The notes under the pieces were generated by a model. It made no database searches. It was not told the DNA's origin and saw nothing but the letters and a program-made list of their open reading frames with translations. Positions 18,431 to 25,927 of a stretch of DNA of 26,872 nucleotides are shown in pieces (within the stretch, counting starts at the first letter, position 1; the number at the start of each line of letters is the position of its first letter). This DNA comes from a virus, in the IMG/VR virus record IMGVR_UViG_3300032288_004259, positions 1-26,872 of that record. One strand, written 5' to 3'. The translations under genes and the position numbers were made by a program.

Positions 18431-20200
18431 TTATACCGGGTAAAGGGCTGTAAAGCTATTGCCCCTAAACTGAAGCTGGTCCTCGGCATCGGCTGCCCAT
18501 TCGGCGCCCCTGACCAGAACCCCGATGTCTCTCAGGTGGCGGATAGCCATACTGACCGTATCCACCAAGTCGTCATGCTTGCCTTTGGGGAATTGGCCGA
18601 CCTGAGTGATGACCATCTCGGCCCAAGACATATTGGGGGCGTAAATCATCCCTTCGGCAAAGATGTGCTGAACAGAATAGAGCCGAGCCAGCTTATCTTG
18701 GCCTTTGGGGTCTATCAGCTGGACGCCAAACTTCTCGTACCCATAGAGGCGACGAATTTCCTGAGCCACCGAGTGACCAGCGGCCTTATTTTCAATCAGA
18801 AGGTTGTCTACCTTCATTTTGGCGCATGTTTCAGAGACTTTCGCCACCAGATCATGCAATTCGTACCGGCCCTGCCAGGCATACATCATCATGACGCGTG
18901 GGTGGCTTTCTGAATACCGGCGTTCAGCTGATCCGCCGACCTGTTTCATGTTTTGGGCGACCACATCTCCAGAAAACACGCCCCAAATGGTCAAAGCGGA
19001 CGGATCATTCTCTGTTTTTGTCGTGTAGGCAGTATCCAGAGAGGCAATAACTAGTTCCATAGAGGGATAGATGGATGAATCCCACGGCATCCACCATTCG
19101 CGCTTGATAACACCACCGCCTTTTGGCTCGGGACGCTGTTGAAGCTGACCGGCAGCAGTCCACGGACCCATTTGGCGCTCCAAAATCTCCACTTCGGTAT
19201 CGCCAAACCGTTCTGGCCAAAGCAATTCGCCTTCGCGGTCCTCTAATTCCACCTGAGCATCAGGGCTGACAGGAATACGCTCGCCATCTTCGCTGACCTC
19301 AACCAGCGGCTCGCCGTCATCATCCAATCCACGGGGGTCATCCCAGACCAATTCATAGCCTTCGGGATCAAATCCAAGGACCGTATGGCTGTGGCGTTGC
19401 CATTCATACCGCATTGGCAGGCAGAGATGGGTCCATTCGCCCATATCTTTGGACATTATGTACCCAGTCAGGTCCTGTTCGCTAAGTCTCTGCTGAATAA
19501 TGACAAAAGCGCCTGTTTTTGGGTCATTAAGTCGGGTTGAGAGCGCCGAATCCCACCATTCAATGGTGCTGGCGATGGTCGCCTCAGAAAAGGCTTCCTG
19601 TGCAGCGTTCGGATCGTCAACCACGATGATAGATCCGCCTTCACCCGTGAGTGCAGACCCGACAGAGGTGGAGAGACGCGAGCCATTCCGGTCATTATCA
19701 AACCTCGTCTTGGTATTTTGGTCGCCGGTCAGCTTAAACCTCTCGCCCCAGAGGGACTGATACCACGGACTTTCAATCAGGCGGCGGCATTTGACCGAGT
19801 CACGGAGAGAAAGCTGCTGGGCATACGAGGCGTGAAGGAATTGTACGCCTGGCCCGGCGGTCGGGGACCACTCAGATTGGGGCCTGGCCCATACCCAAGC
19901 CGGGAAAGCGACACTGGTGAGCGAGGATTTGGCGCAGCGAGGCGGAATGTTGATGATCAGGCGCCGGATTTGGCCGTCAGATACGGCCTGAAGGTGTTCA
20001 GCGACAGCTTCAATAGGCCATCCAGGGGTAAATTCAGATGAATCTATGTATCTCCAGCCGCTTTGAAGGAATGTGTACAGACTTTTCTGGCAGTCTACGC
20101 GCTCAAGTTCGCGTTCTACATCATCAATTCTCAACAATTGCCCGTTGAAATTAATGAATTCTTTCATGTTGCTGCCGGGTTTTTTAATTTCCATAACCAT
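18431..20200 (-). CDS. terL: Terminase large subunit (ATPase and nuclease)
   Basis: The 589-aa packaging motor cuts concatemers and translocates DNA through the portal. The ATPase domain has a Walker A variant PPRCAKSS at residues 86-93, Walker B IIVVDDP at 191-197, and QQR at 236-238 as the coupling motif. The RNase H-like nuclease domain has the acidic residues Asp389 (ASLDTAY), Glu470 (LLIENKAAG) and Asp543/544 (KHDDLVD). Two starts are possible. The ATG at 20200 is given; the ATG at 20167 overlaps the upstream stop as ATGA and could work by coupled re-initiation. Neither has a strong Shine-Dalgarno. The small subunit is not adjacent but about 5 kb away at 25265. Confidence 0.93.
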   Translation of the reverse strand: MVMEIKKPGSNMKEFINFNGQLLRIDDVERELERVDCQKSLYTFLQSGWRYIDSSEFTPGWPIEAVAEHLQAVSDGQIRRLIINIPPRCAKSSLTSVAFPAWVWARPQSEWSPTAGPGVQFLHASYAQQLSLRDSVKCRRLIESPWYQSLWGERFKLTGDQNTKTRFDNDRNGSRLSTSVGSALTGEGGSIIVVDDPNAAQEAFSEATIASTIEWWDSALSTRLNDPKTGAFVIIQQRLSEQDLTGYIMSKDMGEWTHLCLPMRYEWQRHSHTVLGFDPEGYELVWDDPRGLDDDGEPLVEVSEDGERIPVSPDAQVELEDREGELLWPERFGDTEVEILERQMGPWTAAGQLQQRPEPKGGGVIKREWWMPWDSSIYPSMELVIASLDTAYTTKTENDPSALTIWGVFSGDVVAQNMKQVGGSAERRYSESHPRVMMMYAWQGRYELHDLVAKVSETCAKMKVDNLLIENKAAGHSVAQEIRRLYGYEKFGVQLIDPKGQDKLARLYSVQHIFAEGMIYAPNMSWAEMVITQVGQFPKGKHDDLVDTVSMAIRHLRDIGVLVRGAEWAADAEDQLQFRGNSFTALYPV

Positions 20201-24023: not shown

Positions 24024-24231
24024 TCCTGACTGGCTGGGCAAAACCTTCGCCCAAGAGAAATGGACGCCAGAGAAACGGCAATATGTCCTAGACCAACTGG
24101 CTAAGGGCAGGAAAGTTCCAGACATCGCCAGGGAACTTCTGGTACCTCCCGGCCAATTAAGAACAGCTATGCGATACCACCGAGCCAAAGGGGAAGGGCA
24201 TGAGTGAGTGGCAACCTATAGAGACGGCGCC
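23817..24231 (+). repeat. 23-nt direct repeat at the starts of two DUF551 domains
   Basis: Positions 23817-23839 and 24209-24231 are identical and encode WQPIETAP in both DUF551 genes, including wobble positions. The rest of the two genes is much less similar at DNA level. Confidence 0.85.
24016..24207 (+). CDS. Small helix-turn-helix protein
   Basis: The start at 24016 overlaps the end of the DUF551 gene by 8 nt and gives 63 aa; the longer in-frame version from 23866 lies inside that gene and is rejected. WTPEKRQYVLDQLAKGRKVP, DIARELLVPPGQLRTAMRYH is a three-helix HTH layout: 'W-T-x-E-K/R' opening, then 'x-IA-x-EL' and a recognition helix. It resembles the N-terminal domain of homeodomain-like or GcrA-type regulators. 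It probably binds DNA and could regulate the operon or the repeat region just downstream, but the target is unknown. Confidence 0.65.
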   Translation: MPDPDWLGKTFAQEKWTPEKRQYVLDQLAKGRKVPDIARELLVPPGQLRTAMRYHRAKGEGHE

Positions 24232-24502
24232 TCATGATGGAACCTGGATACTCGTCACAGGGTTTCGCCAACAGCACAACGGACCAATTAGCCATATGTT
24301 TGCTGTAGCTGCCTTCTTCCCCCGCAGCGAAAAGAACCCAATGGGACCCTATGAGTGGTTCTATGGAATAAAAAGAGAGCAATACATAGACAGCCCTACC
24401 CACTGGATGCCGCTACCCAACCAGCTGCCACCCAAGCCTGTCAAACCCAAAAGGCAACTCCAAGTGGTTACCCTGCCAAAAAGAAACATCAAAAAACCCT
24501 AG
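24200..24502 (+). CDS. DUF551-domain protein, last gene of the operon
   Basis: This 100-residue protein starts directly with the DUF551 domain: SEWQPIETAPHDGTWILVTG, FAVAAFFPRSEKN, and SPTHWMPLPNQ, followed by a basic tail (KPVKPKRQLQVVTLPKRN) that may bind nucleic acid. The start overlaps the HTH gene by 8 nt; GGGGAAGGG is the Shine-Dalgarno. It is a paralogue of the 135-aa DUF551 gene. One GGGACCC motif (24343-24349) already occurs inside it. Function unknown. Confidence 0.8.
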   Translation: MSEWQPIETAPHDGTWILVTGFRQQHNGPISHMFAVAAFFPRSEKNPMGPYEWFYGIKREQYIDSPTHWMPLPNQLPPKPVKPKRQLQVVTLPKRNIKKP

Positions 24503-24566
24503 CGAGACAAGACAGGACAAACCAAGACATTTGTCCCAATCAGTCCCAGCCAAGCAGGACAGACAA

Positions 24567-24590
24567 GGACAAAACCCTATAGGGTTGTCC
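24567..24590. repeat. Palindrome around AACCCTATAGGGTT
   Basis: A perfect 14-bp palindrome at 24573-24586 extends, with one extra base, to outer arms GGACAA/TTGTCC. It lies at the left edge of the repeat region. It may be a protein-binding site. No U-tract follows, so it is not a terminator. Confidence 0.6.
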
Positions 24591-24723
24591 AAATGTCCGA
24601 GGCCGACAGGGACCCAAAAAACCTAGCCAAAAAATGGGGTAAGTTTTTAGGACCCTTCCTAAATGGGGTGGGGGCTTTGGGAAAAGTTTGGCCGAAAACC
24701 CGGTAACAGGGACCCATATTGCC

Positions 24724-24751
24724 TTGCCAAAACAATGATTTGCAGTATAAT
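24724..24751 (+). promoter_or_regulatory. Sigma-70 promoter for a possible small RNA
   Basis: TTGCCA at 24724-24729 and a perfect TATAAT at 24746-24751 with a 16-nt spacer. A GGGACCC motif begins at the next base and covers the expected start site, so a protein bound there could repress it. Confidence 0.7.
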
Positions 24752-24757
24752 GGGACC

Positions 24758-24824
24758 CACAAGTGCCATACTTGTACTTCCTAAGCCGTCAGGGGGACTG
24801 GACGCCCTCTGGCGGCTTTTTCTT
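24758..24824 (+). ncRNA. Candidate ~67-nt small RNA between a promoter and a terminator
   Basis: Transcription from the promoter at 24724-24751 should start near 24758. The RNA would hold a first hairpin (ACAAGT/ACTTGT, 24759-24775), a short single-stranded stretch, and then the intrinsic terminator at 24783-24824. No start codon with a ribosome site is present. It could be an antisense or primer-type regulator of the locus; the 5' end is a prediction. Confidence 0.5.
24783..24824 (+). terminator. Strong rho-independent terminator
   Basis: AAGCCG and CGGCTT close a long stem (inner arms CAGGGGG and GCCCTCTG with a bulge), followed by TTTTTCTT. It ends both the plus-strand operon read-through and the short RNA starting near 24758. 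Confidence 0.85.
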
Positions 24825-25133
24825 GGCTGGGACAAAAAGGGACCCAAGTCAAAAGGGGACCCATAGGCCATACCCCTATATAGAGGGACCCATACCCCAT
24901 AAGGGGAAATACAAACACACATGGGGACACAGGGACCCAAAGGGACCCATTGGGAGGGGGACCCACTCCGGGGTTTGGTCATAATTTGCGAAATTAGAAG
25001 GCGGGGTTCAGGACCCAAGATAGGCCCGGCCTCTTTCTATTGGGGTGTGCCACCCGGTTTGGGCATAGGGACCCTCCCCAGGCGATCCCGCCCATATCGG
25101 GCGCTTGCCCAGGATGGGTTTGCTCGCCCGGAT

Positions 25134-25149
25134 TGTTTCACGTGAAACC
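25134..25149. promoter_or_regulatory. parS: parS-type ParB-binding palindrome
   Basis: TGTTTCACGTGAAACC matches the chromosomal parS consensus TGTTNCACGTGAAACA at all defined positions except the last. It contains the perfect 14-bp palindrome GTTTCACGTGAAAC (25135-25148). ParB/Spo0J binds this sequence and spreads as a CTP clamp. A 14-bp exact match is expected about 1 in 10,000 times in a window this size. No parA or parB is in the window, so the host protein or one coded elsewhere would have to bind. Confidence 0.8.
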
Positions 25150-25264
25150 ATATTGGGCATCCAGGCGCTGGCTGGGCGAAGGTGCTCATAATGAGTTGGC
25201 GCAATGCAGCATGGCATGGCGCTTGCCCTATCTGTTAAGTTGTAGCTTGCATGTAAGGCGAGGC

Positions 25265-25927
25265 TTAATCCTTTGCCTCGCTCCACTCTCCCTCCAGCGC
25301 ATCACTAGAGCCGGAGCGCGCAGATTGCAGCGCAATGCGGAGGATTTGCCTTTGCTCATCTGAGAGGGATTCGGCATTTATTGTTACAGCTGCCATCTGG
25401 ATTGGCGCGCCATTCGGGCCCGATATCTCCACTCTCTTAGTCTTATCGGCATATGAGCGAGGCTTTAAGCGCTCCGCATACCAACGCCAAGTGTCGCTTG
25501 CGAGCTTTGCCGCTTGCACCCGCGCAGGATCAATCCTCTCTGTTTTGTTGCGCTCTGCCTCCTCCAGAAGGCGCAGAGGGATAGCTATTGCCTCAGATGC
25601 AGCGTGCTCCGCATAAGCCTCGCGAGCGCGCGCGAGACGCTCCGGAAAATCTCTCTTAAGCCCCTCTTCACTCCTCTCCCAATCCCAGAGAGTCGAGCGC
25701 GGAATATCCAGCATGTCGCAAGCGAGCGTGATGCTTATTCCCTCTGCCATGAGCCGGAATAGTGTCTCTGCCTTGTGCTCACTGTATGAGCTTGGACGCC
25801 CCAGTCTCTTTTCAGCCTTTTCTAGAGCTTTGCGCTGATACTCTTGCAGGGCCCCTTGCAAGTGCTCTCTCATCTCTCCTCCGGAAGGTCTGCGGAGCTC
25901 TTTCACCTTGATTGCTTTGCCGCTCAT
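25265..25927 (-). CDS. terS: Terminase small subunit, Sf6 gp1-like
   Basis: The 220-aa protein starts at the ATG at 25927 after CAGGGATAA. The N-terminus is basic and Gly/Arg-rich. GRPSSYSEHKAETLFRLMAE then GISITLACDMLDIPRSTLWD form the helix-turn-helix (about residues 42-82) that recognises pac DNA. A helical oligomerisation core follows (ARAREAYAEHAASEAIAIPL, DPARVQAAKLASDTWRWYAE), ending in RLKPRSYADKTKRVEISG, a hallmark of these small subunits. The oligomer should select phage DNA and activate TerL. Unusually, terL lies about 5 kb away, with a plus-strand operon and the repeat region between them. Confidence 0.85.
   Translation of the reverse strand: MSGKAIKVKELRRPSGGEMREHLQGALQEYQRKALEKAEKRLGRPSSYSEHKAETLFRLMAEGISITLACDMLDIPRSTLWDWERSEEGLKRDFPERLARAREAYAEHAASEAIAIPLRLLEEAERNKTERIDPARVQAAKLASDTWRWYAERLKPRSYADKTKRVEISGPNGAPIQMAAVTINAESLSDEQRQILRIALQSARSGSSDALEGEWSEAKD

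Follow-up and report, generated by a model that had tools for sequence, protein, structure and literature searches.

A directional GGGACCC array beside terS and parS in an uncultured tailed phage, probably a docking site for a protein

The question raised by this locus is why a phage should carry ten copies of one seven-letter word, all facing the same way, in a gap beside its small terminase gene. The window, meaning the whole stretch of DNA analysed, is an IMG/VR fragment, 26.9 kb long, from a tailed phage that has not been cultured; its GGGACCC array spans positions 24609–25074 and comprises ten exact boxes (starting at 24609, 24709, 24752, 24839, 24856, 24885, 24932, 24942, 24958 and 25068) and two AGGACCC near-copies (24649–24655 and 25010–25016), on the + strand throughout. 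Dinucleotide shuffles give an expectation of about 0.03 copies per strand per 466 nt, and recounting bears out the sequence-only reading as to copy number, common orientation and rarity; the whole window holds 13 copies on both strands against a shuffle mean of 3.1 and a maximum of 8. No 7-mer in the window is more clustered than GGGACCC and GGACCCA, the same word shifted by one base. The box takes the form [AG]GGGACCC followed mostly by A, with A or G preferred before it and A after, and its copies are self-complementary except for an A-A mismatch. The array is indeed non-coding, as had been claimed, and is distinct from CRISPR; a 7-nt word recurs at irregular spacings of 10–110 nt, whereas CRISPR needs regular repeats of ~23–47 nt. 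Outside the array the word occurs at its expected frequency and in both orientations, with one extra exact copy at 24343 inside the last early ORF; the count outside the array therefore indicates no genome-wide avoidance and no equal density elsewhere, and because of this the earlier point that avoidance of RGGWCCY restriction sites makes the density stranger fails, as does restriction avoidance as an explanation.

The array does adjoin terS and parS, as the first reading placed it, within a gap (24503–25264) that separates the early operon from the terS 3′ end. The left border is the last early ORF (DUF551; 24200–24502, + strand), and the right border is terS (25265–25927, − strand), which encodes a small terminase subunit of Sf6 type (PHROG 1482, PF20901). 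Late genes run leftward and include TerL, portal, the major capsid protein (assigned by PHROG) and TerS; early genes run rightward. The large terminase subunit gene terL (18431–20200, − strand; PHROG 38) served as a motif-independent bait for relatives. Among cultured phages, the nearest TerL and portal matches include those infecting Roseobacter, Paracoccus, Caulobacter and Pelagibacter, which suggests Alphaproteobacteria as the host group. Neither the array nor the whole window has a BLAST match among cultured phages, and GGGACCC is absent from the 42 kb examined of MW202675.1, the closest database record, and from the 50 kb examined of Roseobacter phage CRP-901.

A promoter-like TTGCCA-16-TATAAT, a consensus match only (24724–24751, + strand), abuts the box at 24752, and an intrinsic terminator lies at 24783–24826 (+ strand), with a 14-pair stem (24783–24818) followed by TTTTTC and a T-run to about 24826; most boxes start from 13 nt past the terminator onward. 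Together the two predicted signals would delimit a short RNA of ~60 nt. A terminator stands just before or among the boxes in 11 of 24 family members examined, and -10-like words, read by eye, precede the array terminator in several relatives; in L348 and others the recurring -10-like word lies ~30–110 nt upstream, and such a word with its terminator is a possible short noncoding RNA gene. The same gap holds a GGACA/TGTCC-rich stretch (24503–24602) ending in GGACAAAACCCTATAGGGTTGTCC, which is probably another conserved non-coding element; a similar stretch lies upstream of TerL in the box-less contig L340.

Conservation was examined in 80 relatives picked by TerL alone, blind to the motif, from fragmentary metagenomic DNA. 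GGGACCC orientation is 154:5 upstream of TerL and 17:3 downstream, counts that include close relatives and are not independent; among 48 non-redundant upstream regions, 17 have two or more boxes and 27 have none. The array is absent from about half of the TerL relatives, so that the loss in related phages considered at the outset is real for some of them; its patchy presence on the TerL tree takes about 7 changes by parsimony, at least 3 of which are forced. Within the family the word is strict, with 123 exact sites vs 17 nearby one-mismatch forms. L009 and L010, which probably overlap as contigs from a single genome, preserve terS at 87–93%; L010 retains box orientation, terminator and parS despite diverged spacer sequence, and few of its boxes align column to column, and therefore sites turn over. 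Box spacings across the TerL family fall into classes near 10–13, 15–20, 26–30 and 41–51 nt, with none at 31–40 nt; these classes may be explained by relatedness.

Position is conserved along with direction. By homology-supported ORFs, the array is directly 3′ of terS in every family member with terS covered, and the gene on the far side points either way. GGGACCC is on the strand opposite terS in all 18 TerS-bearing array contigs recognised by a TerS profile, including two lineages outside the family; these two, which agree in box orientation, are L121, with a different TerL type and its boxes placed 5′ of terS, and L173/L180 (TerL 30%), where five boxes at 18-nt spacing stand between terS and terL. 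An IMG/VR scan with an octamer pair, using no protein information, led back to the same phages; many matching contigs encode the window's TerL and portal family.

The second element of the gap is a parS-type palindrome, GTTTCACGTGAAAC (25135–25148), identical to chromosomal ParB sites; this sequence is the chromosomal parS consensus (PMC7022226). In the 80 TerL loci, matches to the 14-nt chromosomal parS, with up to one base changed, number 98 upstream of TerL and 0 in 530 kb downstream, the counts again including close relatives. Clusters of several copies each are present upstream of TerL without a recognisable ParB in L341, L345, L354, L357, L358, L364 and L383, and in distant relatives too, with up to five sites per phage. 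A scan based on parS alone found the window's portal family in 21/118 contigs vs 1/164 controls among the matches listed, and parS is upstream of TerL in 17 of these 21. In several members that lack boxes there are three to five parS sites; in five sampled members neither element reaches two copies. Box number shows a weak negative link to parS number that is not significant (rho −0.26, p 0.15). GGGACCC itself is not parS-like. As for partition proteins, ParB_N (PF02195) was not found in 20 records, including 56–61 kb family genomes, many of the records being fragments, and neither AAA_31 ParA (PF13614) nor integrase occurs in the family records searched, many of them fragmentary.

The word is not confined to this family. 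Pattern scans of IMG/VR are samples, and their figures hold among the matches listed: with array classes (irregular, coding or tandem) set by simple rules, the GGGACCCA triple-word scan gave irregular non-coding arrays in 40/89, compared with 3/119 for the control word GGAGCCCA and 2/47 for ACCCAGGG. Array carriers outside the window's family form several protein-unrelated groups, most without detectable kinship to that family, and BLAST showed no phage protein that the window's family shares with the other lineages taken together. A single array locus is present in most of 20 long records tested, and the reversed control word is almost absent from them. In G010 and G015 the array is far from TerL; G010, a separate lineage, encodes a T7-like primase-helicase. 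Irregular GGGACCC-octamer arrays are rare in bacterial contigs (7/120 among the matches listed, from bacteria in general), and a Chi-like host word was rejected on this count. The literature searched held nothing relevant on GGGACCC with phage, nor on TGGGTCCC with repeat.

Because word, direction and place are all retained in relatives whose sequence otherwise drifts, and because unrelated phages show similar clusters, the GGGACCC array probably serves to dock a protein. The reading tentatively preferred here, at less than even confidence, is that selected boxes and parS make up a single cis-acting locus for genome handling, flanking terS on its 3′ side, with the boxes read by a factor common to hosts or many phages. 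A sequence-specific factor would bind the boxes, as DNA, in one orientation; it would probably be other than the phage's own TerS, and once loaded could hold the phage genome, segregate it or start its replication, with host ParB recruited at parS. The role of the array would then be maintenance or replication, not the start of packaging. A factor common to hosts or many phages is favoured since the TerS recognition helix differs among carriers and, in some other phages, the array of this word stands at a distance from TerL. A wider version is possible but doubtful: GGGACCC(A) may be a phage cis-element common to unrelated phages, each with one directional array, probably read by a host-encoded DNA-binding factor, and the terminase-linked version with parS would borrow host partition machinery. 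If real, one short word would mark genome-handling sites across many uncultured phages, and would point to a conserved reader not named in the literature searched; the parS beside the array suggests that phages without recognisable integrase or ParB tap host chromosome segregation.

Several results count against the genome-handling locus, namely the box-less half of the family, the lack of any AT-rich stretch that stands out in the array region, and negative tests for helical phasing (no periodicity at 9–13 nt, R at most 0.19), ParA, ParB and Prim-Pol. Among the genes of the family are those for an HTH_36 protein and a primase zinc ribbon, also present in a box-less member. The origin proposed among the first suggestions gains nothing from composition; cumulative GC skew near the array has a peak, not a dip, and is confounded by gene strand, and skew across long genomes is uninformative. 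Compared with iteron origins, the array likewise has a single word repeated directly in a common orientation and lacks helical register. The type I iterons of phage P4 ori/crr are boxes read by P4's own alpha protein; they resemble the array as short, strict, irregularly spaced boxes forming a cis locus for replication, but no common reader of the array was found across lineages. With respect to ParABS centromeres, the phages here have bona fide parS without their own ParB or ParA in the records searched. The mycobacteriophage RedRock offers a working parallel by analogy: an 8-bp motif is directly repeated eight times at both parS-L and parS-R, and its ParABS phage group has a replication-linked noncoding RNA (PMC7157519). 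RedRock is nevertheless not the same system, because its word differs and it encodes ParA and ParB, whereas the window's family has neither ParB nor AAA_31 ParA in the records searched; the part of the RedRock genome examined has no GGGACCC, which recurs in unrelated phages, and RedRock parS is a different word from the box.

The main rival to the genome-handling locus is a pac-type packaging-initiation site, at which TerS would bind the directional boxes by itself or together with a partner and headful packaging would begin at terS; this is considered rather unlikely. An array locked to terS fits packaging as well as it fits genome handling: it is always 3′ of terS in the family, its orientation holds in L121 and L173/L180 as well, and the TerS is of Sf6 type. 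To this extent the earlier proposal of a pac or TerS-binding region stands, as a place suited to packaging or genome handling. Boxes or parS lie near contig ends in 12 cases vs 5.4 ± 2.1 expected, but the ends share no single fixed point, and same-species contigs span the array. In known pac and cosB sites, such as the lambda R sites, the DNA is read by the matching TerS; these are likewise few, short, same-direction sites beside terS. Here, however, the TerS recognition helices diverge among carriers and the word is invariant, so the conserved DNA-recognition residues typical of a pac pairing are lacking; relatives with homologous TerS lack boxes, and arrays in G010 and G015 are far from TerL. 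A TerS-specific site is accordingly not favoured.

Two further explanations are improbable, to a like degree. The first is an RNA-level element, in which the repeats, as UGGGUCCC within the 3′ part of the terS transcript or as GGGACCC in RNA made by read-through, would act as RNA-binding sites or mutually pairing segments; the constant 3′ position and orientation relative to terS and the near self-complementarity of the copies would suit it. RNA structure was rejected, however, as folding is no better than that of shuffled sequence (z −0.1 to −1.1) and Rfam gives no match, and in ORF maps read by eye the arrays of other phages are not consistently 3′ of a sense gene. The second is a cluster of operator or antiterminator sites at which a phage repressor or a late regulator would act, an operator cluster having been allowed by the sequence-only reading too; the promoter-like site abutting one box and the terminator within the array are in its favour, but most boxes sit in the intervals between gene 3′ ends and not over promoters, and the word occurs in phages without a detected protein in common with the window's family.

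An anti-defence decoy is very unlikely. Clustered sites would titrate a host DNA-binding defence factor, in the manner of the aba element of BstA prophages, which suppresses BstA, needs two short direct CCCGCC repeats, acts as DNA and pairs with its own BstA variant (PMC8585504). Both are short DNA-acting elements with direct repeats on a phage, and strict repeats, patchy presence with its forced changes, and recurrence across phages would be in keeping with a decoy; no bstA-like partner is known for the array, however, there is no candidate defence factor, and a decoy would not require a fixed place and orientation beside terS. Neutral or mobile accumulation of a functionless short repeat has an equally slim chance: it would account for the patchy distribution and the turnover of positions, but the spacers are unrelated, a single strand is used, one-mismatch decay products are few and control words behave otherwise. 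A T7-type primase site (GGGTC) was dismissed, as no DnaB_C or Prim-Pol is present in the family records searched.

Two minor features accompany arrays elsewhere. In the array-terS interval of some carriers there are lineage-specific imperfect repeats beside terS, for example GGTTTGTCACACCC..AATGG (L143:3771–3971, L362:7334–7533, L010:429–526, L011 and L358), which are candidates for TerS or initiator sites. In another phage group (L142, L144, L151, L178 and L195) the last box is in the loop of a long hairpin; the stem AAGCCG...CGGCTT is seen in L142 and L144, and the text GGGACCCATTTTACTG occurs in several members of the group.
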